Positions 25,704-59,315 of a stretch of DNA of 64,000 nt are shown piece by piece. The translations under genes and the position numbers were made by a program. Under the pieces are notes generated by a model. That model worked only from the letters and a program-made list of their open reading frames with translations. It searched no databases and was not told the DNA's origin. Source of the DNA: Leucosporidium creatinivorum (Eukaryota > Basidiomycota > Microbotryomycetes > Leucosporidiales > Leucosporidiaceae); assembly GCA_001600635.1 (NCBI GenBank), contig BCKL01000011.1, positions 125,383 to 189,382 of the forward strand. Reading direction: 5' to 3'. The first letter of the stretch is position 1, and each line of letters opens with the position of its first letter.

Positions 25704-27243
25704 ATGCCTAGTCTGGTGGACAACGTACCCGGTCTCGCCGAGAAATGCGCCTATCAAACGCCCGCCGAGTTCATGGCTGCTCATTACACTGCTCTTGCAG
25801 CGAAGCAGGCGAGAGGGACCGCGCTCGCAGAGCCACAACAGCCGGCCCCTTCTCGAGCTGATGCAGCAGCAGGACCTTCGACGACCTCCAAGAAGCGCAA
25901 AGCAGTCGATCCGCCGCCTGAGGAGTGGCCATGGTGCCCTGCAGACACTGCGAGACCTCTCTATACCTCTGCCGACTTCAACACGCCATTCGCGACGGAG
26001 GAGCAGGTTCGCAGGTAGGTCACGAGCTTCAGAGTCAGTTATATAGATGCTGATTCATTCCCTGCATAGCTGGTACACTCGCTTCAAGCACATCGTCGGT
26101 CCGAGCTCTTTCGCGCTCTCGGCGTTCGGCGCTGACTTCTCTCCTACAGCTGAGCAAGCGGAACTTCTACGTCGTACAAGAGCATCGTAAGTCTCATCGA
26201 ACCTTCGCGCGAGAGACGGAGCTGACTTCCTGGCCAACAGACGCCACGGCGAACCACTGGGACCTTCGGATTCAGCTGGACGGCGGACTCGTCTCGTTCT
26301 GCATCCCCAAAGGGCTCTTCGACTTTGAGGAGGGACCCGAGCGTCGATATGTGGTGTGGCAGCCGGTCCACCCGATCACGGATTGTCTCGTCGAGGGCGG
26401 TTCGGTCGGCGATAAGAAGGTCGACGATCTCGGCTTGTATACGGTGAGTCGGGGACTCTGTGAGCTAGCTCGCAAGCTGATCTGTTTGTCTAAAGATGAT
26501 GGAGACCCTTAGCAAGGCCAAGAAACGAGCTGATATCCGCAAGCAGGGCTTCGACGATACCGAGACGACCGACGACGATGAGGATGCTCAACCCGAGGAT
26601 GAGAAGCAGGAGGATCTTTTTGCTCAAGGTAGATCTTGAAGACCTCACATTCTGCTTCCTGCGCTGACCAGTCGTGCGGTAGCCTTTTACTACACCATGT
26701 TCCAGCCGCTCGGCTCTCGCTGGGGCCAGCCTGCTCCTCCCTCGCCTCGCAAGGATCCACGAAAAGGCCGCGCCTTCGTTATCGAGCTAGTGAGTTCCTT
26801 TTCTCCTTCTCATAGACAGTCCACGCGGCTGACATGCTCTCTCCGTCGCAGAATGGAACCCGCTTCAAGGGCGTTCGGCTCCACTTCTTTCGCAACCCCG
26901 GCGACATCAAGTACCAGCGCTCAAAGTCCGTTCCCTCTCCAGAGCTAGTAATTCTGTCTAGCTGACCTTCTCGATGAATAACCCTCCCACTTAGGGGCGA
27001 CCGATTCCCCGAGGTGAGCTCGCTCGTTCGGCTTTCGCATGCTTGAACCTGGCTGATCATCCGCGTCGCCTACAGTATATGGTGAGCATCCACAAGGGGT
27101 CACCTCCCACCGTAAAGGACACCTCCTTCGGCAAAAAATCGATCCTCACCGGCCGCACGATGGAACAAGTCCGCGCCGGTCGCGCCGAGCAGGAGCATTT
27201 GGTGAGAGAGAGCCGCGACGGCAAGAGGCATAGGGGGGAGTAG
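25704..27243 (+). CDS. LigD-type 3'-phosphoesterase-like protein, paralogue P1
   Basis: Resembles the N-terminal phosphoesterase domain of bacterial LigD, found alone in some fungi and archaea, which trims 3'-phosphates or ribonucleotides at DNA ends. The N-terminus has YQTPAEFMAAHYTALAA, shared with P3, then a Pro/Lys linker. The domain core is LSKRNFYVVQEHHATANHWD followed by LRIQLDGGLVSFCIPKGLF; it keeps the H-x5-H-x-D-x-R pattern of the active site. A second His occurs in WQPVHPIT. Then come LVEGGSVGDKKVDDLGLY, an acidic insert (TETTDDDEDAQPEDEKQEDL), a Trp/Gly-rich stretch and a final segment ILTGRTMEQVRAGRAEQEHL. About nine exons. Function is inferred from the motif only. The 3' end of this gene is also present as a relic at 52350-52414. 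Confidence 0.62.
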
Positions 27244-27407
27244 GACCGTGTGTAGACTGCTGTGGGTTCGTAGTTGCACTCAGCGCCATTCACGAGGTGA
27301 CACTTCCTGCACCGACGAGCGACAAGCGAGCCGCTCGCTCTCTCCGACATCTCTCGAGCACGAGTAGACGACTTCACGGCACACGATGCATTGTACACAA
27401 AAGACCG

Positions 27408-28750
27408 CTACACTATCAATCCAAACGCCTTGGCCATCGCCTCCAGCGCCTGCACCCTCTGCTTCAGCCCCTCGTTCTCCGTCTCCAGCTCCTTGTTCCG
27501 CTCCTCCAACTCCCCAAGTCGCTCCTGCTTGCGCTGACGAGACTTGCGAGCCGACAGCGTGTTCTGTAGCCTCTTGCGCTCGACAGCAGCAGCAATGTCC
27601 TCGGGGATGGCGTCCTCCGGCGAAACCTCGTTTGACGACTTCGCAGCCTCCGAGTCGGGGCTGGCGCTCGTCCGGCCGCGCTTGGCCAGCTCGCGCTCGA
27701 CGGCGGCTGTCTTGCGCTTCTTGGAGGTGGTAGAGTCGACGAGGTAGTTGCGAGAGCGGATGGGAGCGTCCATGGGGACAAGCTGGGTCGCAGGACCGCG
27801 GAAGCCAGTCCCTCGGCGACTCGTCTTGACGGCAGGGGCCTTCTCAGAGGTGGTAGAGGTCGATGTAGTCGGTGGAGGAGGAGCAGGCGTGAGCGAGGAG
27901 ATGGAGATTGGGAGGGAGGGCAGGGCAGGTAAAGCGGGACTGCGGAGCAGCATCGTCTCCAGGCTGGACGGAGGAGCGAGTGCTGGCGTAGGAGCGAACG
28001 TGTAGGAGGTGTTGGGGAACAGCGACGGATAGCTGAGGTCGAAGGGAGGAGTGGCGGTTCCCGCGTCGCTGGCGAAGATGGGCGAGTTGAGGAACTCGGA
28101 GAAGGGGCTGTCTTGCTCCAATCCGAGCGGCGACTCGAGGCTGCCGTCCAGCGCGAACGGGTTGCCGCCGTTGAGCGATGTATGAGGCGAGTAGGACGGT
28201 GGGTTTGAGAGGGAGGTAGTCACGGAAGTGAGGGCGAAAGCGTAGGTGTCGAAGGAGGACGGGAGAGCCGAGCTGTCCGCCGACGAAGAGTCGAAGGTGC
28301 CGTGCCGAAGGTCTGTTCGTGGAGAACGTCATTAGCGCTGTAGTCTGGCTCAAGGATAAAGCCCAAGCTCACCTCCACCGAAAGGCTTGAGAGGCTCGGC
28401 GTTGGCTCCGTTCTTTTGAGATTCATGTCCGCCGTCGAGCTCGATGAGTCCGAACGGGTTGTCGAAGGCGAGGTGGTTGTTTACAGGGAGGTCGATGTCT
28501 GCCGACGCCGTGGGAGAAGCGTCGGTCGAACCGAGAGTCGAGTCGAGGTTACCGAGAGGGAAGAGGGACGATTGCAGGGGCCGAGGGACGTCCGAGATGG
28601 TGCTCGAAGCGTCCGCATGATGAGGTACAGTTGCAAGGCGTTGCGAGCTTAGTTGTCGCGCGAAGCCTTCGAGGTCGCCGGTGCTGGCGAGCTCTGCTGA
28701 GGCGCCATGGCGGGGGGGAAGAGAGCTGAGGAGCTGTAGAAGGTCTGCAT
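27408..28750 (-). CDS. Gcn4-like bZIP transcription factor A1
   Basis: Nuclear bZIP regulator. The C-terminal basic region RLQNTLSARKSRQRKQERL, with N..AA/SARKSR as in Gcn4/Cpc1, precedes a leucine zipper (LGELEERNKELETENEGLK, then QRVQALEAM). Upstream are VPMDAPIRSRNYLVDSTTSK and an acidic Ser/Pro-rich region with SLESPLGLEQDSPFSEF, probably activation domains. The main frame spans two exons with a 60-65 nt intron near 28310-28375. It has no in-frame ATG: the only ATG at the front (28750) opens a 33-codon frame, MQTFYSSSALFPPAM..., ending in TAA before the bZIP frame is reached. A C7 run (28712-28718, complement) could allow a -1 shift into the bZIP frame; alternatives are an uORF plus an unseen start. 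Near-identical to A2. Confidence 0.75.
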
Positions 28751-29455
28751 GATAATCTTGGGGTGGGGGGTGATCGTTGCTGTTGGTGTGTAGAGCTGTA
28801 GATCAGCTCACTGCTCTGCAAGCCTACAGAAAGCCTTATCGGTCTCTCCACGCGGGCCCACGGCTGCTAGCTCTGCCGTCGGCCACACACCAAGCTGTAG
28901 TGGACTCACTTTAGGTAGTGAGGGATTGGGACCGCTTGACAGGTACGAGGGGTTGAGCGCTGTAGGTTGACAGAGGGGAAACTACGGTTCTGGACTGTTG
29001 GAGACCACTAGGCTTGAGGAGCTGGAAGGGCTGAGGGAGCTGGGGAGGGCGAGAGCAGAAGGGAGACTGCTCTGTAGAACTCTCGAGGTCGGAGAGGCTG
29101 CTGCTGTAGGCTTGTAGGCTGTGTGCCGAGGCTGAGGGAAGTGCAAGAGAGCAAGCCTGTTCGACCCTTGGAGACCAGCGCCCGGCTCGGATCCGAGCGC
29201 TCCAAGTCGACTCATTTCCCAAGTTCCCGCGCGTTAGGCCTTTTTCTGACGTGATGTGCAGAGCTGGAGGTTGCGATGGAGATTGCAAAGCACAAGGGAG
29301 ATGTACGAGAGCAGAAGGCGATGAGCGAGATGGTGAACGCTCGCTCTCACCCCTTCGCCGAGGAGAGGAGCGCCGAGCCGAGCACTGGAAGATCAAGCGA
29401 GGCGATTCCCTTCCGTTCCAGACTATTCATATGTGAATCAAGCTAAGCTACAGAA
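28751..29455. promoter_or_regulatory. Upstream region and leader of bZIP A1
   Basis: About 700 bp between A1 and the 3' end of P2. On the minus strand a GTGAGT donor (near 28910) and a TCTACAG acceptor (near 28796) define a likely leader intron; both are conserved in the A2 copy. The leader exon contains short open frames that differ in frame between copies A1 and A2, which argues that it is untranslated. CTACAG/CTGTAG motifs recur throughout. Confidence 0.55.
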
Positions 29456-31172
29456 CTAATCGCTATCATCCAAGCTCCTCCTGCTCCTCACAGTCGGCCT
29501 CGGCCTCGGCGTCGACCTCGTTAAGCGCTCAGCCATGACCCACGCCCTATCCTCGGGAGCTACAGCAACGACAATCTCGTCCTCCGGCTTATCAGGAGCA
29601 TCGTTCCAAGGCCTCCTCCCCTTGACTCCCGCCTCCCATTTGCGCGCGAGGGGAGGGTTCCAAGCGTACCAGTCTTCGGCGACGGTCGTCGATTTCTCCT
29701 TGTCGGCAGCAATCTCCTCCATCGAGCGGTCGGTGAGGAGAGAGCGCTTGTACGACGGAAAGATGATTCCAGAGGATCCAGGGCGATCGTCGAGGTTGAA
29801 GTACCACTGCGTTGGGGGCAGAAAGTCAGCGGAGGCCAGCGCCGAGAGAGCAAATTCACGGCTCACCTGGTGCTGGAAGCGGCGAGGGATCTCGGGAGGC
29901 CCGTACTTGTTACTGTGTGGGTCATTAACACTCTGTCAGCTTCAACGCAGGCAGCACAGAAGCGAGAGCAGACGCACGTGGTGTTCTTGCGCAGAGACGA
30001 CCAGCGCTGGAATTGAAGGCGCACGCCCTGGTGACGGTAGCCGTTCTGCGGAGGGTAAGAGGGGGTTCAGCTTTACCTAAGCCGCGCTCTTCAGCACCAG
30101 GCTCACCAGCTCGAGGACAAAGCCGCGACGATCGCCCGTGTCTTCGGCGGCAGGCTGACCAGGCTGACCCCAGCGAGGTGGGAGAGGAAGGAAAGAGCCG
30201 TGGTAGAACGCTGCAGCGATATACCTGGTCAGCGCAAATGCTCTGAGCCCGCTAAGTAACGGAGGAGAAGCCCACCTTCAGCAAACAGAGTCTCCTGCTT
30301 CTCGTCCTCAGCCTCGCCGGGCTCGCCCTCGCTATCTCCCTCCTCCTCGGTCGTTGTATCGTCACTGAAGCCTTGCTTGCGAATAGCAGCCTTCTCTTTC
30401 TTCCTCTTCTTGACCTCGCTCGTCCTCGGCAGCACCTGTAGACCGCTCTTCGGGTCAGCTCTCCTTCCAGACTTCCTCTCGGCGATGCACCACCACTCAC
30501 CTTGTACTCGCCAATGTCCTCGCACATGGTCACTCCCATTCCACCCCCATCCAAAAGCGCAATGTTGACCGCCCTAGGCTGCTCCTCCAACGCCAGACGT
30601 CCCCACTTCATATCGTCGCCCTCGCCGATTCTCGGCGCTCGCGAGAGGCCGTCTTTGGAGGGGATGCAGAAAGTCACGAGTTGGTTGTCGAGCTGGAGGC
30701 GGAGGTCGAAGTGCTGGGGGTGTGTAGCGGGGTCTGCGCGAAGAGGAAGACGGGTCAGCGCGAGGTGAGAGGAATGCTCGGCGAAGGACCACGACTGACG
30801 ATGGCGCTGCAAGACGAAGAAGTTGCGCTTCCTCAACGCAGGGTGCTCCTTCATCCATCTGTAACAGAGTAAGAGAGTGATCAGTCTGCAACTTACCCCT
30901 GCAGCGAGCCACGCCTCACCCTTTGACCTGTGCGACCGACCAGTCGGGGGTGAGGAAGTCCTTCGGGACGAAGCGACGGCGAACGGGGACAGTTGCAGTA
31001 GGCTGCGGGAGTGCTTGCTTCTTAGAGGTAGGTTCTTAGAGGTAGGAGAGGCGAGAGCAGAAGCGGCTCGTTTCGAGGTAGTCGACGTGCTGGCGGCGGA
31101 AGGCGAATCGAAGGGCTCGCGAGGAGCTGCCGAGGCGTTTGAAGGGGTGCGGAAGGGCTCAGTGGGTCCCAT
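29456..31172 (-). pseudogene. LigD-type phosphoesterase-like paralogue P2, frameshifted in exon 1
   Basis: Inverted near-identical copy of P4. It begins MGPTEPFRTPSNASAAPREP. The domain core reads QHFDLRLQLDNQLVTFCIPS, and then EEQPRAVNIALLDGGG, where the family's second His motif is replaced. The acidic segment and the C-terminal block YKRSLLTDRSMEEIAADKEK are intact. In exon 1 a 14-nt unit (AACCTACCTCTAAG, minus-strand sense, around 31021-31048) is duplicated in tandem; P4 has one unit. The shift leads to a stop at the beginning of exon 2, so the product would lack the whole catalytic domain unless splicing or translation avoids it. The rest of the gene keeps normal splice sites, including the GTGAGC donor that P4 has lost. 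Either a young pseudogene or a sequence error. Confidence 0.6.
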
Positions 31173-31465
31173 GTGCGCTACGGAGCTGCCGTGTTACAGC
31201 AAGCCGAGCGAGAGACAAGTGAAGCGAGCGGAAAGTGAGCGGCAGGAAGGCAAGAACCGAAATCGGCTTCGACGGCTCTCTCCCTTCTCCTTCATCTTTC
31301 GCTCCGCTTCGACTCGTCGCTTTCACCTTCCCCCTTTCGCTGTAGGAGGGTAGCTCAAACTCGTACAGCTCTACAGCACTAAGCTCCGACCAGTCAGCAA
31401 ATTCTGCGACACTCTCGGGCCCTCCGCCAGCGTCTGTCCTCTCGCCGCGTCTCACAGCTCGAGCC
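31173..31465. promoter_or_regulatory. Divergent promoter of P2 and the F-box gene
   Basis: About 290 bp between start codons. The P2-side ~190 bp are conserved in front of P4 (48230-48409) with over 90% identity; the F-box-side part is unique here. The X repeat therefore ends inside this promoter. Confidence 0.6.
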
Positions 31466-44040: not shown

Positions 44041-44189
44041 TTGGACGAGACGAGGTCGGGGCGGGAAGACAAGAGACGAGATCAAAGCTGGCTTTCTCTC
44101 TCGCCGAGTTATCCGCTTGATATTCGGTCAGCTGTTGTAGTCGGGTACAGAGCTCTTAAAAGCTGTTGAGCTCTCTCGCTGACCTCTGT

Positions 44190-47100
44190 AGCGCTCCCCT
44201 TCCCCTCCTCCAGCTCGACGCTCGGACGCTCAAACACGTTGCCGAAGCGGTGCAGACGACTCAGCAGGTCAACAAGGGTGTGCAGAGCTGTGAGGGATGT
44301 TTGTGAGTAGCTGGGGCACCTGTCAAGCAGCAGCGAGCTGTCAATCAAGCTCCTTCGCCGCCCTCGAGTTTCGGCCGAGTTCCTTTGTTCGGCGATGAGA
44401 GAAAGAGCTCGTGCCTCGATTGTGGCGCTCTGTGTCTTGCAGTGAGGCAGCATGAGAGCCAGTTAACGAAGTATGGCGGACCTCGAGGGTGCTGAAAGAA
44501 GCGAGAGAGGCATCAACGAGCAGCTTCTCGTTCGGCGCCGAGTCGCTCTCAATTCGCTTCGCGGCGGCTCTCAAGTCAGCTCTGCTCAAGTCGAGATACT
44601 GCTAAACACATATGAGATTTTTGGTACTGATGGAGAGCTACACAAAAGCGAGAGCTATGCACAAGGGAGGAGATGGGACTCTTTTTGATCGCGCCGAAGC
44701 GCGGTGAAGGAGATGCTAAGTGGAGGGGGAGAGGTACTAATGATAGGGCAGGGGAAAGCCGAACAATCACAACGCAACGCCCGCCGCCTGGGCTCGACTC
44801 CTCAACTCCTCATTCTCCTGCCTCAGCTCCTCCAACTGCTCGTCCTGCTCCTTGACTCTGGCCTCCAACCCCGCGAGGTACTCGGCCTTGCGCTGCCTAC
44901 TCTTCCTCGCCGCCAGCGTGTTCTGCTTGCGCTTCTCGTCCACCTCCTGCTTCGTCTCGTCGTCAATCTCGTCCGCCTCCTCATCGTTGACGCCGACCGA
45001 GGTGTTGCGCTTGCGCTGCGACGAGATCGTCTTGGCGATGGCCTTGGGCAGCACCTTGCGCGAGGTGCGAGACTCGCCGCGCCAGTTGCGAGGCTGGATG
45101 GGCGCCTCGAGGGGGACGGTGGGCACCGTGTCGTGGGAGCGAACGCCGTTAAAGACTCGCTTGCCCGTGTTGGGATCGCGAACGCCGGCGCCGGTGGGCT
45201 TGCGCTTGCGAGTGGTGGTGGTACGAGTCGAGTGAGAGGTGGAAGAGGAAGGCGTGTACTCCTCGTCGTCGTCGTCGCCGCGGGTGTGGGAAGCCATTGG
45301 TGTAGCCTCCTCATCGCCGAGCTCCTCGACCTGCTGCTGAGCGGGCTGCTGTCCCTCAGCGGAGGGTACAGGAGCGAGTCCGACGTCGCGAGTAGCAGGA
45401 GAGCCGAAAGGCGAAGCGAAGAGGGGTCCAGCTCCGCTGAACTGTTGCTGCTGCTGCTGCTGTGCGACGAGTCCGCCGGTGGAGATGTCGGGGTAGAGCT
45501 TGAGCTCGGGGAAGACGGCTTGGAGGGAGGTGGTCGACTGCGCGGCGCTCGTGTCGAAGAGGGGCGAGTAGTCGAGCGAAGGAGTGCCGAGCGCGGCCTC
45601 CCAGGGCGAAGGGGTGTACTCGGACGAGCTGCCAAAGGGCGAGTCGAGGTCAAAGTCCAACGGCGACTCGAGCGCAGCGTTGAAGCCCATCGCGCGTGCT
45701 TGCATGTCGCTGGAGGTGATGGGCGCTGTCGCCGAGCCAGGGATGGGGAAGGTGACGGCCATGGAGAAGGGGGAGGGCTCGGTGAAGGAGGGAGGAGCCT
45801 TTTGGGCGGCGACGAGCGATGCATGCTCGTGGTGCACGTAGTGGGCGAGGTCGAAGGGAGCGCCTGCGAGTGTGGCAGAGAGTAAGAGCGAGTCAGCGCC
45901 CGAGTTCAACCCCAGCGCCTCATGCAACCCTTCCCAAGCGAGCCAGTGATACTCACCTCCATCCAAGGACGGCGAAGGAGCAATCTGCACCGGAGCGAGG
46001 GTGGGAGCGAATTGCGAACCCTGGCCAAAGGTGACTCCGAACGAGCTGCTCGTGTGATTGGCGGGCGAGAAGAGGGCGGGCGAAAGGTGGGGGATGGAGG
46101 CGCCTTCGTTGTCGAGGTCGCCAAAGAGGGGAGAGAACTCGCTTAGGGCCGCGTGTTCGGCTGCGACTGCCTCTGAAGACAGTCGCGAAGGTGCGAAGGA
46201 GGGAGAGCGAGCTGGGCCTGCAGCTCGAAACGAAGCGCTTGCTGCGAGGGGCGGAGAGGGTGGAAGGACGGGTGGTTCATCGTCGGCGAAGTGGGCGGCA
46301 TCCTGGGTGGTGTTGTAGGTGATTGGAGTGTCGTCCGAGCCAAAGGCAGGCGAAGTCGGGCTATCAGAGCGGGTGAGCATCGCTGTTGCGGTTCGAGTGG
46401 CGCTCGAGGGCTGTACTAACCTGGGGAAGCTGTTGCTGGCGGGCTGTAGCCTAGTAGGGTGATGGGAAGGGAAGCTGGGCTCGGAGTAACCGTGAATGGT
46501 GCCGGTTTGCGAGCGAAAAGGGCGAAGAGACGAAGAGAGAGCGGCTCAAAGGGCGAGCGCGGCGAGGGTCTCTTCTGTAGGGTGGTTGGATGTACTAGGA
46601 CGACGGCTGCCAGGTGTGCTGTACTAGTTGGTAGAAGCTGTTGACCTGGACGACGACGATTAGACGAAGAATCGACGCTGTGAGCGGTAAGAAGCCAAGC
46701 TTGGTCAGCTCCCTCGCGCGCTCCAAATACTGACTTGGTGGCCGCGCAAGCTCCGTCTCGAGTCACAATTCGACCACATCTCGTTAGCGTTGTGTCTGCT
46801 TGGTCTGGAAGGGTGCAGAAAAGCGCAATTCCCGCTGCTGAGATCACCCTTGCAACTCGGAGCCACAGTCTCCCCCTCCGAACCCATCGCCGAGCGCCGA
46901 GCGGAATGGCCCTCTGTAGGAGATCAGGACTGTTGTGTACCTTCGACTGGGGTCAGAGCAGAGTGTATCTTCTCCTTCATTTCCCCACTCGACCTCGTAG
47001 GAAGCAGCCTCGGCTCGCCAACACCATCGCCGAACAGCTTCACCTTCGCCGAGCCAATTTTCCTCGGCTCTCGAGGTAGATCAGGGCAACTCCTCGTCGA

Positions 47101-47205
47101 GGCGCTGCAATCGATACTCTTGGCTCAGCTCTGCCGAAGCGAGACGACTCGACATCGAAAGAGCCTCAGAAACGGAAGCCGAGAAGGAGGTCGAGCGCCG
47201 AGCAG
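44190..47205. repeat. Inverted repeat Y', left copy
   Basis: About 3 kb, inverted relative to ~52404-55480. The core (~44350-46740 against ~52905-55300) contains bZIP B and its promoter and is almost identical; paired positions of the B genes add up to exactly 99643, so there is no indel across 1.6 kb. Outside the core, identity drops visibly on both sides, down to about 80% near 44200 and 47000 by eye. Confidence 0.92.
44767..46380 (-). CDS. Gcn4-like bZIP transcription factor B1
   Basis: Nuclear bZIP regulator, up to 537 residues if unspliced. It starts MLTRSDSPTSPAFGSDD. An intron near 45865-45955 (GTGAGT donor, CTGAC, CGCAG) interrupts the frame after SPSLDG; it is in frame and stop-free, so retention would add about 30 residues. 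The middle has ALESPLDFDLDSPFGSS, a Gln run and acidic DDDDEEY. VPLEAPIQPRNWRGESRTSR precedes the bZIP: basic region KRKQNTLAARKSRQRKAEYL and zipper AGLEARVKEQDEQLEELRQE. Paralogous to bZIP A through the LESPL/DSPF and EAPI.RN motifs. It differs from B2 by two residues that I can see (Thr/Ala in FDTSAAQ, Asp/Asn in EVDEKRKQ). Confidence 0.87.
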   Translation of the reverse strand: MLTRSDSPTSPAFGSDDTPITYNTTQDAAHFADDEPPVLPPSPPLAASASFRAAGPARSPSFAPSRLSSEAVAAEHAALSEFSPLFGDLDNEGASIPHLSPALFSPANHTSSSFGVTFGQGSQFAPTLAPVQIAPSPSLDGGEYHWLAWEGLHEALGLNSGADSLLLSATLAGAPFDLAHYVHHEHASLVAAQKAPPSFTEPSPFSMAVTFPIPGSATAPITSSDMQARAMGFNAALESPLDFDLDSPFGSSSEYTPSPWEAALGTPSLDYSPLFDTSAAQSTTSLQAVFPELKLYPDISTGGLVAQQQQQQQFSGAGPLFASPFGSPATRDVGLAPVPSAEGQQPAQQQVEELGDEEATPMASHTRGDDDDEEYTPSSSTSHSTRTTTTRKRKPTGAGVRDPNTGKRVFNGVRSHDTVPTVPLEAPIQPRNWRGESRTSRKVLPKAIAKTISSQRKRNTSVGVNDEEADEIDDETKQEVDEKRKQNTLAARKSRQRKAEYLAGLEARVKEQDEQLEELRQENEELRSRAQAAGVAL

Positions 47206-48075: not shown

Positions 48076-48409
48076 TTGATGTATAATATCGTCAGCGAGG
48101 GCTCGGCACCGACATCTTCAGCTCTGAACCCGGGCGCACCGAGAGGACGGACCCTGGCGGAGGTTTAGGAGCGGCGACGTTTTGCTGGCTGGTTGGAGTT
48201 GGGCGACGTAGAGCTGTGCGAGCTTGAGCTACCCTCCTACATCGAAGCACTGAAGGTGAAAGCGACGAGTCGAAGCGAAACGAAAGATGAGGGAGAAGGG
48301 AGAGAGCCGTCGAAGCCGATTTCGCTTCTTGCCTTCCTGCCGCTCACTTTCCGCTCGCTTCACTCGTCTCTCGCTCGGCTTGCTGTAGCACGGCAGCTCC
48401 GTAGCGCAC

Positions 48410-50118
48410 ATGGCACCCACTGAGCCCTTCCGCACCCCTTCAAACGCCTCGGCAGCTCCTCGCGAGCGCTTCGAATCGCCTCCCGTCGCCAGCACGTGGA
48501 CCGCCTCGAAACGAGCCGCTTCTCCTCTCGCCGCTCCTACCTCTAAGAGGCAAGCACTCCCGCAGCCTACTGCAACTGTCCCCGTTCGCCGTCGCTTCGT
48601 TCCGAAGGACCTCCTCACCCCCGACTGGTCGCTCGCACAGGTCAAAGGGTGAGCCGTGGCTCGCTTCAAGAAGAAGCTGAGAAATGCTCACTCTCTTGCT
48701 CTGTTACAGATGGATGAAGGAGCACCCTGCGTTGAGGAAGCGCAACTTCTTCGTCTTGCAGCGCCATCGTGAGTCGTCGTCCTTCGCCGAGCATTCCTCT
48801 CACCTCGCGCTGACCCGTCCTACTCTTCGCGCAGACCCGGCTACCCATCCCCAGCACTTCGACCTCCGCCTCCAGCTCGACAACCAACTCCTGACTTTCT
48901 GCATCCCCTCCAAAGACGGCCTCTCGCGAGCGCCGAGAATCGGCGAGGGGGACGACATGAAGTGGGGGCGTCTGGCGTTGGAGGAGCAGCCTAGGGCGGT
49001 CAACATTGCGCTGTTGGATGGAGGTGGAATGGGAGTGACCATGTGCGAGGACATTGGCGAGTACAAGGTGAGCGGTAGAGCATAGCCGAGAGGGACGGTG
49101 GGAGGAGAGCTGACCTGAAGAGCCGTGTACAGGTGCTGCCGAGGTCGAGCGAGGTCAAGAAGAGGAAGAAGAAGAAGGCTGCTATTCGCAAGCAAGGCTT
49201 CAGTGACGATACCACGACCGAGGAGGAGGGAGATAGCGAGGGCGAGCCCGGCGAGGGTGAGGACGAGAAGCAGGAGACTCTGTTTGCTGAAGGTGGGCTT
49301 CTCAGGCCTCTTATTGCGAGAGCAGAGCATTAGAGCTGACCTGGTATATCGCTGCAGCGTTCTACCACGGCTCTTTCCTCCCTCTCCCACCTCGCTGGGG
49401 TCAGCCTGGTCAACCCGCCGCCGAAGACCCGGGCGATCGTCGCGGCTTCGTCCTCGAGCTGGTGAGCCTGGTGCTGAAGAGCGCGGCTTAGGTAAAGCTG
49501 AACCCCCTCTTACCCTCCGTAGAACGGCTACCGTCACCGAGGCGTGCGCCTGCAGTTCCAGCGCTGGTCGTCGTTGCGCAAGAACACCGCGTTCGTCTTC
49601 TCTCGCTGCTGAGCCGGCATTTCTCGAAGCTGACTAGACCTCGACTCATCAACAGCAACAAGTACGGGCCTCCCGAGATCCCTCGCCGCTTCCAGCACCA
49701 GGCGCGCCGCGGATTGCTCTCTCGGCGTTGACCTCGGAGTCGGCTGACCTTTCTGCTCCCAACGCAGTGGTACTTCAACCTCGACGATCGTCCTGGGTCC
49801 CCTGGAATCATCTTTCCGTCGTACAAGCGCTCGCTCCTCACCGATCGCTCGATGGAGGAGATCGCTGCCGACAAGGAAAAGTCGACGACCGTCGCCGAAG
49901 ATTGGTACACCTGGAACCCTCCTCTGGCGCGCAAGTGGGAGGCGGGAGTCAAGGGGAGGAGGCCTTGGAACGATGCTCCTGATAAGCCGGAGGACGAGAT
50001 TGTCGTTGCTGTAGCTCCCGAGGATAGGGCGTGGGTCATGGCTGAGCGCTTAACGAGGTCGACGCCGAGGCCGAGGCCGACTGTGAGGAGCAGGAGGAGC
50101 TTGGATGATAGTGATTAG
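48410..50118 (+). CDS. LigD-type phosphoesterase-like protein, paralogue P4
   Basis: Near-identical to P2 but with an intact exon 1 (MAPTEPFRTPSNASAAPRER; TATVPVRRRFVPKDLLTPDW). The core is WMKEHPALRKRNFFVLQRHH then HPQHFDLRLQLDNQLLTFCI. The His-x-Asp-x-Arg part is kept, but the spacing to the first His is altered and the second His motif reads EEQPRAVN, so catalysis is doubtful. The acidic segment DDTTTEEEGDSEGEPGEGED and a C-terminal block as in P2 follow. The intron beginning at 49702 has lost its donor: P2 has GTGAGC where P4 has GCGCGC. If this intron is retained, a stop follows within about a dozen codons and the last ~100 residues are lost. A non-consensus GC donor could still be used. 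Confidence 0.6.
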
Positions 50119-50821
50119 TTCTGTAGCTTAGTTTGGTTCACATAGGAATAGTCCGGACCGGAAAGGAATCGTCTCGCTTGATCTTCCAGTCCTCGGCTCG
50201 GCGCTCCTTACCTCGGCGAAGGGGTGAGAGCGAGCGTTCACCATCTCGCTCATCGCCTTCTGCTCTCGTACATCTCCCTTGTGCTTCAAATCTCCATCGC
50301 AACCTCCAGCTCTGCACATCACGTCAGAAAAAGGCCTAACGCGCGGGACTTGGGAAATGAGTCGACTTCGAGCTCTCGGATCCGAGCCGGGCGCTGGTCT
50401 CAAGGGTCGAACAGGCTTGCTCTCTTGCACTTTCCTCAGCCTCGGCACACAGCCTACAAGCCTCAAGCAGCAGCCTTTCCGACCTCGAGAGTCACTACAG
50501 AGCAGTCTCCCTTCTGCTCTCCCTCCTTCCCGCTCCCTCAGCCCTTCCAGCTCCTCAAGCCTAGTGGTCTCCTACACTCCAGCACCGTAGTTTCCCCTCT
50601 GTCAACCTACAGCGCTCAACCCCTCGTACCCGTCAAGCGGTCCCAATCCCTCACTACGTAAAGTGAGTCCACTACAGCTTGATTTTTGGCCGACGGCAGA
50701 GCCAGCAGCCGTGGGCCCGCGTGGAGAGACCGATAAGGCTTTCTGTAGGCTTGCAGAGCAGTGAGCTGATCTACAGCTCTACACACCAACAGCAACGATC
50801 ACCCCCCACCCCAAGATTATC
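50119..50821. promoter_or_regulatory. Upstream region and leader of bZIP A2
   Basis: About 700 bp between the P4 stop and the first ATG of A2. A likely leader intron runs from a GTGAGT donor at 50662 to a TCTACAG acceptor ending at 50775, conserved with A1. Directly before the donor stands a TAA in the bZIP frame, so that frame cannot be extended upstream through this junction to an earlier ATG. Confidence 0.55.
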
Positions 50822-52164
50822 ATGCAGACCTTCTACAGCTCCTCAGCTCTCTACCCCCCCGCCATGGCGCCTCAGCAGAGCTCGCCAGCACCGGCGACCT
50901 CGAAGGCTTCGCGCAACAACTAAGCTCGCAACGCCTCGCAACTGTACCTCATCATGCGGACGCTTCGAGCACCATCTCGGACGTCCCTCGGCCCCTGCAA
51001 TCGTCCCTCTTCCCTCTCGGTAACCTCGACTCGACTCTCGGTTCGACCGACGCTTCTCCCACGGCGTCGGCAGACATCGACCTCCCTGTAAACAACCACC
51101 TCGCCTTCGACAACCCGTTCGGACTCATCGAGCTCGACGGCGGACATGAATCTCAAAAGAACGGAGCCAACGCCGAGCCTCTCAAGCCTTTCGGTGGAGG
51201 TGAGCTTGGGCTTTATCCTTGAGCCAGACTACAGCGCTAATGACGTTCTCCACGAACAGACCTTCGGCACGGCACCTTCGACTCTTCGTCGGCGGACAGC
51301 TCGGCTCTCCCGTCCTCCTTCGACACCTACGCTTTCGCCCTCACTTCCGTGACTACCTCCCTCTCAAACCCACCGTCCTACTCGCCTCATACATCGCTCA
51401 ACGGCGGCAACCCGTTCGCGCTGGACGGCAGCCTCGAGTCGCCGCTCGGATTGGAGCAAGACAGCCCCTTCTCCGAGTTCCTCAACTCGCCCATCTTCGC
51501 CAGCGACGCGGGAACCGCCACTCCTCCCTTCGACCTCAGCTATCCGTCGCTGTTCCCCAACACCTCCTACCCGTTCGCTCCTACGCCAGCACTCGCTCCT
51601 CCGTCCAGCCTGGAGACGATGCTGCTCCGCAGTCCCGCTCTCCCCGCTCTTCCGTCCCTCCCGGCTTCAACCTCTTCGCTCGACCCCGCTCCTCCTCCAC
51701 CTACACACTCGACCTCTACCACCTCGGTGAAGGCTCCTGCTACCAAGACGAGCCGCCGAGGGACTGGCTTCCGCGGTCCTGCAACCCAGCTCGTCCCCAT
51801 GGACGCTCCCATCCGCATTCGCAACTACCTCGTCGACTCGACCACCTCCAAGAAGCGCAAGACAGCCGCCGTCGAGCGCGAGCTGGCCAAGCGCGGCCGG
51901 ACGAGCGCCAGCCCCGACTCGGAGGCTGCGAAGCCGTCAAGCGAGGTTTCGCCGGAGGACGCCATCCCCGAGGACATTGCTGCTGCTGTCGAGCGCAAGA
52001 GGCTGCAGAACACGCTGTCGGCTCGCAAGTCTCGTCAGCGCAAGCAGGAGCGACTTGGGGAGTTGGAGGAGCGGAACAAGGAGCTGGAGACGGAGAACGA
52101 GGGATTGAAGCAGAGGGTGCAGGCGCTGGAGGCGATGGCCAAGGCGTTTGGATTAACAGTGTAG
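50822..52164 (+). CDS. Gcn4-like bZIP transcription factor A2
   Basis: Near-identical to A1. The bZIP frame is open from 50776 to the intron at 51200-51259 and on to the stop at 52162-52164. It encodes LLQLLSSLPPRHGASAELAS, DIDLPVNNHLAFDNPFGLIE, then SLESPLGLEQDSPFSEF, VPMDAPIRIRNYLVDSTTSK and the bZIP (RLQNTLSARKSRQRKQERL plus zipper). No ATG occurs in this frame before the middle of the protein. The first ATG (50822) opens a 33-codon frame with TAA at 50921. In it, codons TAC CCC CCC GCC place a C CCC CCC heptamer at 50854-50860; a -1 slip there enters the bZIP frame exactly. No GT lies between the ATG and that TAA, so ordinary splicing cannot join the frames. Confidence 0.75.
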
Positions 52165-52349
52165 CGCTCTCTTGTGTACAGTGCATTGTGTGCTGTGAAG
52201 ACGTCTCGTTGTGCTCGAGAGATGTCGGAGAGAGCGAGAACTGCAGCCAGCAGGTCGGCCCGCTCGTCGCTCGTCGCTCGTCGGCGCAGGAATTGTCACC
52301 TCTTGGAGGGCGCTGAGTGCACATACGAGCCCACAACAGTCTACACACG

Positions 52350-52414
52350 ATCTTACCCCCTCTTATGTTTCTTGGCGGCACCGCTCTCCCTGACCAAACG
52401 CTCCTGCTCGGCGC
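52350..52414 (-). pseudogene. Relic of the P1 C-terminus
   Basis: On the minus strand this short stretch reads SAEQERLVRESGAAKKHK-like, matching the last codons of P1 (RAEQEHLVRESRDGKRH). The rest of the P1-type gene is absent; the sequence continues directly into repeat Y. It shows that segment X was copied from the 27-31 kb locus. Confidence 0.7.
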
Positions 52415-53262
52415 TCGATCTCCTGCTCGGCTTTCCGTTTCTGAGGCTTTTTCGATGTCGAGTCGTCTCGCTTCGGCAGAGCTGAGCTAAGAGTGTCGAT
52501 TGCAGCGCCTCGACGAGGTGTTGCTTGATCTACCTCGAGAGCCGAGGAAAACGCTCGGCGAAGGTGAAGCTGTTCGGCGATGGTGTTCGCGAGACGAGCA
52601 AGCTTCGTTCGAGGTCGACCGGGTGAGCGAAGGGGATAGAACATGTCTCTAAACCCTGCTCACCGTGAGCAGCGCCACCCTGCTCTCCTACAGAAGGCAG
52701 TTTCGCTCGGCGCTCGGCGATGGGTTCGGAGGGGGAGACTGTGGCTCCGAGTTGCAAGGGTGATCTCAGAAGCGGGAATTGCGCGAATGGAATACACGTG
52801 CTTTTCTGTACCCTTACAGACCTCTCCACGAAGCTAACGAGGTGTGGTCGAATTGTGACTCGAGACGGAGCTTGCGCGGCCCTCCTCTGCGCTCAGATCT
52901 CAGACCAAGTCAGTATTTGGAGCGCGCGAGGGAGCTGACCAAGCTTGGCTTCTTACCGCTCACAGCGTCGATTCTTCGTCTAATCGTCGTCGTCCAGGTC
53001 AACAGCTTCTACCAACTAGTACAGCACACCTGGCAGCCGTCGTCCTAGTACATCCAACCACCCTACAGAAGAGACCCTCGCCGCGCTCGCCCTTTGAGCC
53101 GCTCTCTCTTCGTCTCTTCGCCCTTTTCGCTCGCAAACCGGCACCATTCACGGTTACTCCGAGCCCAGCTTCCCTTCCCATCACCCTACTAGGCTACAGC
53201 CCGCCAGCAACAGCTTCCCCAGGTTAGTACAGCCCTCGAGCGCCACTCGAACCGCAACAGCG
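52415..53262. promoter_or_regulatory. Upstream region of bZIP B2
   Basis: About 850 bp with no gene I can support. The proximal ~360 bp are the same as before B1, so the two genes share promoter and leader, including GCTACAG and CCAACCACCCTACAG motifs. Confidence 0.6.
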
Positions 53263-54876
53263 ATGCTCACCCGCTCTGATAGCCCGACTTCGCCTGCCTT
53301 TGGCTCGGACGACACTCCAATCACCTACAACACCACCCAGGATGCCGCCCACTTCGCCGACGATGAACCACCCGTCCTTCCACCCTCTCCGCCCCTCGCA
53401 GCAAGCGCTTCGTTTCGAGCTGCAGGCCCAGCTCGCTCTCCCTCCTTCGCACCTTCGCGACTGTCTTCAGAGGCAGTCGCAGCCGAACACGCGGCCCTAA
53501 GCGAGTTCTCTCCCCTCTTTGGCGACCTCGACAACGAAGGCGCCTCCATCCCCCACCTTTCGCCCGCCCTCTTCTCGCCCGCCAATCACACGAGCAGCTC
53601 GTTCGGAGTCACCTTTGGCCAGGGTTCGCAATTCGCTCCCACCCTCGCTCCGGTGCAGATTGCTCCTTCGCCGTCCTTGGATGGAGGTGAGTATCACTGG
53701 CTCGCTTGGGAAGGGTTGCATGAGGCGCTGGGGTTGAACTCGGGCGCTGACTCGCTCTTACTCTCTGCCACACTCGCAGGCGCTCCCTTCGACCTCGCCC
53801 ACTACGTGCACCACGAGCATGCATCGCTCGTCGCCGCCCAAAAGGCTCCTCCCTCCTTCACCGAGCCCTCCCCCTTCTCCATGGCCGTCACCTTCCCCAT
53901 CCCTGGCTCGGCGACAGCGCCCATCACCTCCAGCGACATGCAAGCACGCGCGATGGGCTTCAACGCTGCGCTCGAGTCGCCGTTGGACTTTGACCTCGAC
54001 TCGCCCTTTGGCAGCTCGTCCGAGTACACCCCTTCGCCCTGGGAGGCCGCGCTCGGCACTCCTTCGCTCGACTACTCGCCCCTCTTCGACGCGAGCGCCG
54101 CGCAGTCGACCACCTCCCTCCAAGCCGTCTTCCCCGAGCTCAAGCTCTACCCCGACATCTCCACCGGCGGACTCGTCGCACAGCAGCAGCAGCAGCAACA
54201 GTTCAGCGGAGCTGGACCCCTCTTCGCTTCGCCTTTCGGCTCTCCTGCTACTCGCGACGTCGGACTCGCTCCTGTACCCTCCGCTGAGGGACAGCAGCCC
54301 GCTCAGCAGCAGGTCGAGGAGCTCGGCGATGAGGAGGCTACACCAATGGCTTCCCACACCCGCGGCGACGACGACGACGAGGAGTACACGCCTTCCTCTT
54401 CCACCTCTCACTCGACTCGTACCACCACCACTCGCAAGCGCAAGCCCACCGGCGCCGGCGTTCGCGATCCCAACACGGGCAAGCGAGTCTTTAACGGCGT
54501 TCGCTCCCACGACACGGTGCCCACCGTCCCCCTCGAGGCGCCCATCCAGCCTCGCAACTGGCGCGGCGAGTCTCGCACCTCGCGCAAGGTGCTGCCCAAG
54601 GCCATCGCCAAGACGATCTCGTCGCAGCGCAAGCGCAACACCTCGGTCGGCGTCAACGATGAGGAGGCGGACGAGATTGACGACGAGACGAAGCAGGAGG
54701 TGAACGAGAAGCGCAAGCAGAACACGCTGGCGGCGAGGAAGAGTAGGCAGCGCAAGGCCGAGTACCTCGCGGGGTTGGAGGCCAGAGTCAAGGAGCAGGA
54801 CGAGCAGTTGGAGGAGCTGAGGCAGGAGAATGAGGAGTTGAGGAGTCGAGCCCAGGCGGCGGGCGTTGCGTTGTGA
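53263..54876 (+). CDS. Gcn4-like bZIP transcription factor B2
   Basis: Nearly identical to B1 (see that entry for domains); two residue differences were seen over 537 codons. The frame is intact, with the intron near 53690-53780 and the same polyglutamine run near 54181. It ends RAQAAGVAL. The gene points away from the X copy, whereas B1 points the other way, so the two B genes flank P4 and A2 symmetrically. Confidence 0.87.
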   Translation: MLTRSDSPTSPAFGSDDTPITYNTTQDAAHFADDEPPVLPPSPPLAASASFRAAGPARSPSFAPSRLSSEAVAAEHAALSEFSPLFGDLDNEGASIPHLSPALFSPANHTSSSFGVTFGQGSQFAPTLAPVQIAPSPSLDGGEYHWLAWEGLHEALGLNSGADSLLLSATLAGAPFDLAHYVHHEHASLVAAQKAPPSFTEPSPFSMAVTFPIPGSATAPITSSDMQARAMGFNAALESPLDFDLDSPFGSSSEYTPSPWEAALGTPSLDYSPLFDASAAQSTTSLQAVFPELKLYPDISTGGLVAQQQQQQQFSGAGPLFASPFGSPATRDVGLAPVPSAEGQQPAQQQVEELGDEEATPMASHTRGDDDDEEYTPSSSTSHSTRTTTTRKRKPTGAGVRDPNTGKRVFNGVRSHDTVPTVPLEAPIQPRNWRGESRTSRKVLPKAIAKTISSQRKRNTSVGVNDEEADEIDDETKQEVNEKRKQNTLAARKSRQRKAEYLAGLEARVKEQDEQLEELRQENEELRSRAQAAGVAL

Positions 54877-55639
54877 TTGTTCGGCTTTCCCCTACCCTAT
54901 CATTAGTACCTCTCCCCCTCCACTTAGCATCTCCTTCACCGCGCTTCGGCGCGATCAAAAAGAGTTCCATCTCCTCCCTTGTGCATAGCTCTCGCTTTTG
55001 TGTAGCTCTCCATCAGTACCAAAAATCTCATATGTGTTTAGCAGTATCTCGACTTGAGCAGAGCTGACTTGAGAGCCGCCGCGAAGCGAATTGAGAGCGA
55101 CTCGGCGCCGAACGAGAAGCTGCTCGTTGATGCCTCTCTCGCTTCTTTCAGCACCCTCGAGGTCCGCCATACTTCGTTAACTGGCTCTCATGCTGCCTCA
55201 CTGCAAGACACAGAGCGCCACAATCGAGGCACGAGCTCTTTCTCTCATCGCCGAACAAAGGAACCCGGCCGAAGCTCGAGGGCGGCGAAGGAGCTTGATT
55301 GACCGCTCGCTGCTAGTCTACAGGTGCTGCAGCTACTCTCACAGATCCCTCACAGCCCTCCAGACTCTTGTTGACCCGCCAAATCGTCTGCAACCGCTGC
55401 AGCGACGTGTTTGAGCGTCCGAGCGTCGAGGTGGAGCAGGGGAAGGGGAGCGCTACAGAGGTCAGCGAGGGTGCTCAGTAGTTTTTCAGAGCTATTCGAT
55501 GGACTATAGGAGCTCACTGAGCCTTGTGAGGAGAGCGAGGGAACAGAGAAAGCCAACTTTGAACTCGATCTCGCCTCGTGTCCTTCTCCCACAACCTCGC
55601 CTCGTCTCGTCTCGCTCTCGACGTCGCTCAGCCAGCAGC

Positions 55640-57067: not shown

Positions 57068-59315
57068 CTACTTGAAGCCGAAACGATCTAGAGCTCCCGC
57101 TGTGCCCGAAGCAGCCGACTTCTGCGCGAGCGCGTTCTGCTTGGCGACCTTGGTGGCTGCGCGTTGACGCTCGAGCTTCTCCTTGAGCGCGACCTGTGAT
57201 GGGATAAAGAGAAGAGGAAAGGAAAGATCAGCGCCGAGCGCAGCCAGAGTGCGAAAACGACAGAACGCACCGTCTGAGGATCCACAACATTCCTTCTCCT
57301 CTTCCTCAGCATCTTCTTGAGCGTCGAGTTCCTTCCCCTCGCCCTGTTCTTGGCATCGGCCTTCTCCACCCTTGCCAACTTCTTAGCCTTCCTCCTCTCC
57401 TCATCCTCATCCTCATCATCGTCGCTATCCTCCTCCTCATCCTCCTGATGCTCTCCATCCGTCTTCAATCGATCCAGCCTCGTCTTCTGAGCATACGGCG
57501 TCGCCTTGAAGCCCGGCTTGTCGGGGTTGATCCTCTCCTCCGCCTTCATGACGTTGGTATCCAGCTTTCCGACCATCTCCGTATCGAGCGTGATCATGTC
57601 GAAGGGGATCTTGTCGAGAAGCGAGTTGACCTCACGCTCACGACGACGCCTCTTGCCCTCGAAGGGATCGGCCTCGAGCGAATCGAAGTTGGCCTCTCCA
57701 GCGCCGGGGATGATGAGCGAGGTGAAGCCCGAGCCGTGGCCGACTCCGAGGACGTCGTCGAAGGGGCAGAAGCGCATGTCGTTGACAGCGGTGCCGGGGA
57801 AGGTGTGGGTCATGTAGGGCGGTGGCGGCATGCGAGGGTTCTGGCCTGGTCGCTGGAGGTCCTTGAAGACCTGTTGGGTAAAGAGAGAGCGTGTCAGCGA
57901 GATGAAAGAGAAGTATGGGTAGCGAATGTAGCGCACCGAAACGTGGTTGCCCCATCCCAAGCCGAGCAGGCCCTTCTGACTCCAAACGGCCGTCTTCGGC
58001 GTCTTCTTGAACTGGTACTCGTTCAGAACGGCCCACTTCCTCGTGTCCCAGACCTTGACTGTTCCGTCGACGCCGGTGGTGACCATGCGAGTGCCGAGTG
58101 TAGAAGGGTCGAGAGCGATGGACGAGACGGGACCTCGGTGAGCTTGCAGCTGGACTTGAGGCTTGGAGACGGAGGGAGACCAGAGCGAGACGGTTCCTGT
58201 AGGTGGAAGGGGGGGTCAGCGAAAGATAGCGGAACGAGAAGAGCAGCTGACCTCACCGTTCTGGTGACCGAGGTGGATGAAGGCGTTGTGAGGGTTCTGA
58301 GCCATCGTTTGGCATCCGCCGAGCTTGGTGCGCATCTCGGCGACGAGCTGACCCGTCGATGTATCCTGGTACTTGAGGTATCCGGCGTTGCCCTGCGACG
58401 TGCGAGAGCCGGTCAGCTCTCCGCTCGGCCTCCATCGCCGAAGCCAATCTCAAACTCACTACCGTCGCGAGCAGGAAGTGGTAGGGGAGGAACTCCATCT
58501 GGGTGACCTCGACATGATTCCGCAGCTGGTGCACCTCGAGTCCGTCTTTATCGTAGATGTAGACGTACTGCTTCTGCGCAACGGCGAAGAAGCTCTCGTC
58601 GTGAAGCCAGCGGATCGCTCGTGCCGTCTCCTTGAGCTGAATCTCGCAGTGGAGGCGTCCCGAATGCCAGTCAAAGGTTCCGATGTGTCCCTTGCGACCG
58701 GCAATGGCGAGATGGCTGCAGGAGAAAGCGCGAGGATCAGCTCGGCGCCACTTGCCAAGGGGGAGAGCAAACGCCGAACTCACCGTCCATTCCTCGTGTA
58801 ATCGACGGCGTAGGGTCCAAACTCCTCCAGCTTCAGACTAAACGACTTGCTAGCAGTAGCAATCGCACTCGACTCGACAATCTCGTCCTGCTTGACCTTC
58901 CAAGTCCTCTCCATATCCGTCTCCGTCTCCATCAACCCCGAGTTGGAGTGGTCCAGCAGCAGGTCGTCGTGCTCGTGGCTCTTCATGCCCGAAGCCTTGG
59001 CCGAGGACGACAGCGAGTTGAGGTGGTGTCCCAGCTTCTTGTCGCTTTGGCTTTTAACCCAATTCTTCTGCACCAACTCTGGCCGGGCGCCGTACATGTA
59101 CTTCTTGAGCGATTGCGTAGGAATGACATGCTCTATATCAAGAGGTCAGCAGCTAGTCCGAAGCTGTACGAGACGAGCAAGAGCTCACCGTCTTGTTTTG
59201 GTAGCTGCCTCGAGTTTGAGAGGAGCGACGGCTCTTGAGGCTTCTCCTTGCCCTTGCCGTGCTTGCCTTTGCCCTTCTGTACCGCTTTACTAGTGCTGGC
59301 TATCGGCGCAAACAT
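57068..59315 (-). CDS. UTP7: U3 snoRNP/SSU processome WD40 protein Utp7 (WDR46/BING4)
   Basis: Nucleolar WD40 protein required for 18S rRNA maturation. It starts [20 protein letters not shown]. Repeats include [20 protein letters not shown] then [76 protein letters not shown] and [16 protein letters not shown]. After the propeller come [20 protein letters not shown] and [20 protein letters not shown] (the BING4CT region), [25 protein letters not shown], and a Lys/Arg/acidic tail ending GALDRFGFK. About seven exons. It shares a ~120 bp divergent upstream region with the THYN1-like gene. Confidence 0.92.

Follow-up and report, generated by a model that had tools for sequence, protein, structure and literature searches.

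AUG-less bZIP frames in fungal cpc-1 and GCN4 homologs

The closest described systems are the cpc-1/GCN4 homologs of other fungi. In the available excerpts of Ivanov et al. (2017; PMC5487733), the bZIP frame of cpc-1 homologs from Pezizomycotina and from the 32 examined Basidiomycota is free of stops far 5' of the AUG, AUG-opened uORFs overlap these AUG-less bZIP extensions, and at least four near-cognate codons initiate translation in N. crassa extracts. The two Microbotryomycetes covered in these excerpts carry a long uORF that opens with an AUG in good context and overlaps the main frame; they lack a short uORF1, and 5' of the long uORF they have a single conserved near-cognate codon. A close upstream gene is recorded there at cpc-1 of Leucosporidium scottii, and several cpc-1 paralogs in some basidiomycetes. 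The near-cognate starts of Cryptococcus given in the excerpts of PMC7049704 are ACG, AUU, and CUG. For eukaryotic -1 frameshifting signals, the PRFdb rule as given in the available part of PMC2483730 is N NNW WWH, with AAA or UUU as YYY. Our literature search yielded no report on such a leader in a red yeast among the matches listed, and no relatives of the present locus were found in the viral-contig, genome-contig, and plasmid collections searched.

The bZIP A gene analyzed here occurs in two copies, A1 and A2, in the window, which is the whole stretch of 64,000 nucleotides of Leucosporidium creatinivorum DNA that was analyzed (G+C content of 59.7%). The features of A2 and their A1 counterparts, by position in the window, are the following:

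27182-31444, minus strand: inverted copy with bZIP A1 and its neighbor gene, 92.5% identical to 48140-52414
28649-28750, minus strand: uORF2 of A1 (ATG 28750, C7 run 28718-28712, stop ending at 28649)
49732-50118, plus strand: last exon of the upstream neighbor gene (left limit uncertain; stop at 50116-50118)
50357-50590, plus strand: uORF1, 77 codons (A1 counterpart 29215-28982)
50659-50661, plus strand: TAA that falls in the bZIP frame when donor 50663 is spliced to the acceptor that ends at 50776
50663-50776, plus strand: candidate leader intron (donor AAA/GTGAGT with eight of nine consensus positions; acceptor CTACAG)
50767-50769, plus strand: TGA closing the unspliced bZIP frame upstream
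50822-50923, plus strand: uORF2, 33 codons, in the +1 frame relative to bZIP, with A at -3 (inner AUG 50864 in GCCATGG)
50854-50860, plus strand: C7 run, C CCC CCC in the uORF2 register
50954-51091, plus strand: uORF3, 45 codons, in the uORF2 frame, AUG with A at -3; overlaps the bZIP coding region
50974-50976, plus strand: AUC, at which the long bZIP isoform may start (context AGCACC-AUC-U)
50974-51199, plus strand: bZIP A2 coding exon, from codon scores (its left boundary lies somewhere from 50777 to about 50995)
51146-51352, plus strand: uORF4, 48 codons once the intron at 51200-51259 is removed, in the uORF2 frame
51200-51259, plus strand: intron of 60 bases, GTGAGC...ACAG, called from signals and frame
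51260-52164, plus strand: bZIP A2 last exon including the stop (A1 vs A2 dN/dS of 0.25 over 51271-52161)
51619-51621, plus strand: first in-frame AUG, which would yield a 181-residue bZIP protein
51988-52137, plus strand: bZIP_1 domain PF00170 (profile match, E 3.7e-11), C-terminal in bZIP A2

Like the AUG-less cpc-1/GCN4 homologs in the excerpts of PMC5487733, bZIP A has a C-terminal bZIP domain and a frame that is open and coding-like 5' of its first AUG, uORFs at 50822 and 50954 (A at -3) that overlap the extended frame, a close upstream gene, as also in Leucosporidium scottii, and more than one paralog. Unlike the Basidiomycota cpc-1 genes published there, it has an in-frame stop just 5' of uORF2 (the TAA at 50659 when the inferred intron is spliced, the TGA at 50767 when it is not), and the best-scored intron leaves it without a near-cognate codon 5' of uORF2. 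Its AUG uORFs all end before the first in-frame AUG at 51619, in contrast to the systems of PMC5487733, and passage from uORF2 to the main frame requires -1 (or +2) in bZIP A, compared to +1 (or -2) for uORF2 of the Pezizomycotina in the same excerpts. Because of the in-frame stop near uORF2 and the lack of an upstream near-cognate codon, bZIP A is likened here to the AUG-less cpc-1 system and is not classed as a member of it; the putative kinship to cpc-1 is drawn from the bZIP domain and the layout only. Another similar gene is CNAG_06246 of Cryptococcus neoformans, with a C-terminal bZIP domain and two AUG uORFs that the excerpts of PMC7049704 call reminiscent of Gcn4/Atf4; this likeness is one of description, not sequence, and an AUG-less main frame is not reported for CNAG_06246 in those excerpts.

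Gene copies and paralogs

The domain matches identified bZIP A as a bZIP transcription factor with a basic region and a leucine zipper. In addition to bZIP_1, bZIP A2 matched PF07716 (E 2.6e-09), and its best matches to Jun and GCN4 in a PDB sequence search had E-values of 1.1e-4 and 6.7e-4, respectively. The NCBIfam search with bZIP A and bZIP B and the Rfam search over 50100-52450 with E up to 1 each gave zero matches. The neighbor exon (49732-50115) differs between A1 and A2 by 13 synonymous and 4 nonsynonymous changes; since these differences are mostly synonymous and the exon ends in the stop at 50116-50118, the bZIP A leader was taken to lie 3' of 50118.

Over 50719-51618, four of the 900 aligned columns differ between A1 and A2 (50853, 50915, 50937, and 51571). 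The sequence-only reading had stated that A1 keeps the uORF2 ATG, the C7 run, and the stop, which is correct; however, with so few differing columns, the agreement of A1 with A2 provides no independent support. The near-identical tract sits between more diverged stretches, a pattern as after gene conversion.

A second bZIP paralog, bZIP B, occupies 53263-54876, with an inverted copy at 44767-46545. The B1 and B2 proteins are related to bZIP A (32-33% identical across the C-terminal portion that aligns) and, unlike bZIP A, are read from one long open frame that has an in-frame AUG close to its start (53263); the B2 leader contains five AUGs within 52415-53262. bZIP B is held in a second inverted duplication (44044-47205 and 52404-55606, 94.3% identity), and its copies over 52904-55303 differ by six substitutions and no gaps. 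The order of the A and B copies differs from that expected of a single inverted block.

Leader, uORFs, and leader intron

Scanning of 50119-50822 revealed one leader AUG before 50822, the uORF1 start at 50357. The start and stop of uORF1 are common to A1 and A2, and two 1-base indels shift its middle part into different frames. Downstream of uORF1, the splice signals point to a probable leader intron at 50663-50776. Its donor GTGAGT is the only GT donor with eight of nine consensus positions and adjoins the TAA at 50659-50661, in agreement with the earlier proposal of an in-frame TAA at the leader-intron junction. With the acceptor CTACAG, the exon starts at 50777, a small correction to that proposal. 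With the same donor, an alternative acceptor ending at 50792 would let the bZIP frame run back to the TAG at 50562 with one AUC (50646, C at -3) inside; it was the only acceptor before AUG 50822 among those tried that reaches an upstream near-cognate codon. The spliced leader of 348 nt contained no AUG, and 64% of 2000 shuffles likewise contained none, so an AUG-free leader was rejected as remarkable by itself.

The elements of uORF2 described from the sequence, namely the ATG at 50822 that opens a 33-codon frame, the C7 run, and the closing TAA, are all present. Its translation is MQTFYSSSALYPPAMAPQQSSPAPATSKASRNN, followed by the stop TAA at 50921-50923, and C CCC CCC is the sole heptamer of the X XXY YYZ type in uORF2. 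All four AUGs within 50822-51618 (50822, 50864, 50954, and 51146) share one frame, +1 relative to bZIP.

Coding potential upstream of the first in-frame AUG

The bZIP frame is open over 50770-51222 without a single ATG, and the sequence-only reading was right that no AUG occurs in it until deep in the protein, at 51619. Given the Met frequency of the training set, the probability of no AUG is about 0.007 over 261 codons and 0.026 over the 195 codons from 50974, so that the missing AUG is somewhat unusual compared with chance. The absence of an in-frame AUG in this sequence is real. Downstream of the TGA at 50767, the first near-cognate start in the bZIP frame is the ATC/AUC at 50974, and the next is the CUG at 50995.

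Codon scores were trained on 22 segments (3006 codons) with the A genes left out. Over 50995-51199, the bZIP frame scored 15.2, whereas the two alternative frames scored -30.3 and -48.6; over 51271-51618, it scored 14.8, compared to -49.0 and -15.9. In the last exon, the comparison of A1 with A2 gave a dN of 0.028 and a dS of 0.110 in the bZIP frame (ratio 0.25), whereas the ratios in the other two frames were 1.49 and 1.70. The intron at 51200-51259 preserves the bZIP frame. We concluded that the bZIP frame is truly coding upstream of 51619, from about 50974-50995 onward.

The codon scores of the bZIP frame were poor 5' of 50974, where the ATG frame (50822-50920) scored better, and across 50924-50994 they were low in all three frames. 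The coding-start score peaked at 50971 in all four models, and AUC 50974 was within 0.8 of the peak. In the B2 control, the same score placed the start at 53503, 80 codons past the apparent ATG at 53263. The penalty there was about 8 to 9, near that of entry at the C7 run in bZIP A (8 to 11), and B2 codons 42-84 scored -13.8 in their presumed true frame. The coding-start score is therefore unreliable for starts in the bZIP A/B family, and after the failure of this control the codon-score start was downgraded to weak support for 50974. Among open 20-codon non-coding windows, 40 of 1616 reached a score of 3.17; of 351 20-codon windows of the training data itself, 336 outscored the two alternative frames.

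Homology between the N-termini of bZIP A and bZIP B was assessed by shuffling. For the bZIP frame over 50860-50994, 746 of 1000 shuffles scored at least as high as the real sequence, in a comparison that has no power because the surely coding stretch 50995-51202 fails it as well (765 of 1000). Similarity of the ATG frame to bZIP B (19 of 1000 shuffles) was rejected as homology, since it is a low-complexity match.

Translation start of bZIP A

We tentatively favor uORF-type translational control combined with initiation at a non-AUG codon, at or close to AUC 50974, an explanation to which we give somewhat less than an even chance. bZIP A would then be a cpc-1/GCN4-type factor, by presumed orthology, with a leader in which AUG-opened uORFs exert a predicted regulatory role. 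AUG 50822 would open uORF2, not the bZIP protein; uORF2 and uORF3 would overlap a bZIP frame whose own first AUG comes only after about 195 coding codons, and the long protein would begin at a non-AUG codon, for which AUC 50974 is the best candidate. A short form carrying the whole bZIP domain could be produced from AUG 51619. The uORFs would hold the output down, and low eIF2 activity, as in amino-acid starvation, would let more ribosomes pass. The C-terminal bZIP domain, the placement of all four AUGs of 50822-51618 in the +1 frame, the coding-like frame upstream of 51619, and the dN/dS of the last exon were counted in favor of this explanation. Counted against it were the in-frame stop and the missing near-cognate codon 5' of uORF2, and, for the AUC start, the position of AUC 50974, 20 bases 3' of AUG 50954 with its A at -3. 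AUC is a weak start codon. A GCN4-like overlapping uORF with an unseen or non-AUG start had been the secondary alternative of the sequence-only reading, and it fits the cpc-1/GCN4 architecture in the published excerpts of PMC5487733.

A one-base sequence error would also account for the absence of a start. If the assembly were one base short in both copies, most likely in the C run, AUG 50822 would be the ordinary bZIP A start, which we consider unlikely but by no means negligible: it is the next AUG 3' of uORF1, with an A at -3, the needed frame change could sit in the C7 run, and A1 and A2 are near-identical here, so that one systematic error could hit both. Other homopolymer runs give no strong sign of shortening, as C or G runs reach length 7 six times in the window and never exceed it. 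The six-G runs at 61953, 62379, and 62410 all lie in a 393-codon open frame that also contains two mitochondrial-carrier matches; at least the run at 61953 is in frame because it lies inside the better of these matches. Codon scores over 50860-50973 do not favor coding in the bZIP frame either, as judged by the score that failed the B2 control. The homopolymer runs neither show nor exclude a sequence error. With the C7 run in error, the bZIP A gene is ordinary. With the run real, two gene copies make a bZIP factor from an AUG-less frame, probably with no near-cognate codon 5' of the uORF, unlike the published Basidiomycota cpc-1 homologs; the initiation sites are then narrowed, or a frame change is forced, which would make the locus a simple test case for the starts of cpc-1/GCN4 extensions. 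An AUG could also be brought into the bZIP frame by unseen splicing through weak or non-canonical sites or an alternative 5' exon, which appears improbable. When introns of the GT-AG or GC-AG type whose splice sites are shared by A1 and A2 were enumerated, 153 of 2933 single introns and 163 of 8596 two-intron combinations achieved this, nine of the latter with donor 50663 in the second intron, and the low codon scores of all frames over 50924-50994 are intron-like. However, 144 of the 153 single introns use AUG 50357 and donors with at most five of nine consensus positions, and the other nine use AUG 50822 or 50864 and GC donors with at most four; the two-intron combinations start from AUG 50357 (154 of 163) or AUG 50490 (nine), and each needs at least one donor of five of nine, eight of nine being reached by a GT donor solely at 50663. 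Furthermore, the frame of uORF1 differs in part between A1 and A2, the neighbor gene apparently ends at 50118, and GT is absent between 50822 and 50943; the earlier claim that no GT separates the ATG from the TAA was confirmed over all 102 bases of 50822-50923, with the next GT at 50944. None of the enumerated splicing solutions is convincing. It is very unlikely that AUG 51619 alone is used, with the 181-residue protein as the product and the upstream frame as leader: this codon is the first in-frame AUG, has A at -3, and precedes the entire bZIP domain, but about 195 codons upstream of it are coding-like and contain a frame-preserving intron.

The sequence-only reading had given first place to a -1 slip, in which ribosomes from AUG 50822 would shift at C CCC CCC and read on in the bZIP frame to give ...YPPRHGAS. 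As that reading held, the run lies in exact X XXY YYZ register and a -1 slip leads into the bZIP frame; the two proline codons read CCC whether or not the slip occurs, no stop interrupts the bZIP frame anywhere in the uORF2 overlap, and frameshifting from the uORF AUG is left open for cpc-1 by the authors in the excerpts of PMC5487733. Slippage is mechanically possible, but the heptamer rule, the chance test, and the codon scores, with their B2 caveat, do not support it, and we judge it highly improbable. The C7 run shares its register with the PRFdb signals but differs in YYY, since C CCC CCC fails N NNW WWH and Y = C is outside the AAA/UUU rule of the PMC2483730 excerpts, and no stimulatory fold stood out; the downstream folds were within the shuffles (z of +0.87 for 50861-50960, -0.84 for 50867-50930, and -0.55 for 50854-50990, in a fold model without pseudoknots). 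An in-frame X XXY YYZ heptamer was present in 18.3% of 20,000 codon-shuffled 33-codon ORFs, so its occurrence in uORF2 is not improbable. The codon score was 9.49 for a frame switch at C7, 14.23 for one at 50879, and 12.31 for one at the TAA, and 2.45 for the bZIP frame throughout from 50822. Placing a stretch of the ATG frame ahead of the bZIP frame thus raises the score, and C7 is not the favored switch point. It would take still more for bZIP A to be a starvation regulator made through a -1 slip on CCC CCC that reads proline tRNA charge directly, an idea to which we assign only a very small chance; ribosomes from AUG 50822 would in that case reach the bZIP frame only on pausing at CCC CCC.

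Other features of the window

A gene on the minus strand at 57091-58837, which we take to be UTP7/WDR46-like, contains a BING4CT domain (E 1.3e-36) and a WD40 repeat. The C7 run at 58215-58209 in this gene sits in an intron suggested by its signals. At the left end of the window, a direct repeat of 133 bases (1-133 and 1849-1981) is 99.2% identical, and two pairs of stretches in direct orientation, with 71-73% identity, were found in 18710-19259 and 22007-22514.
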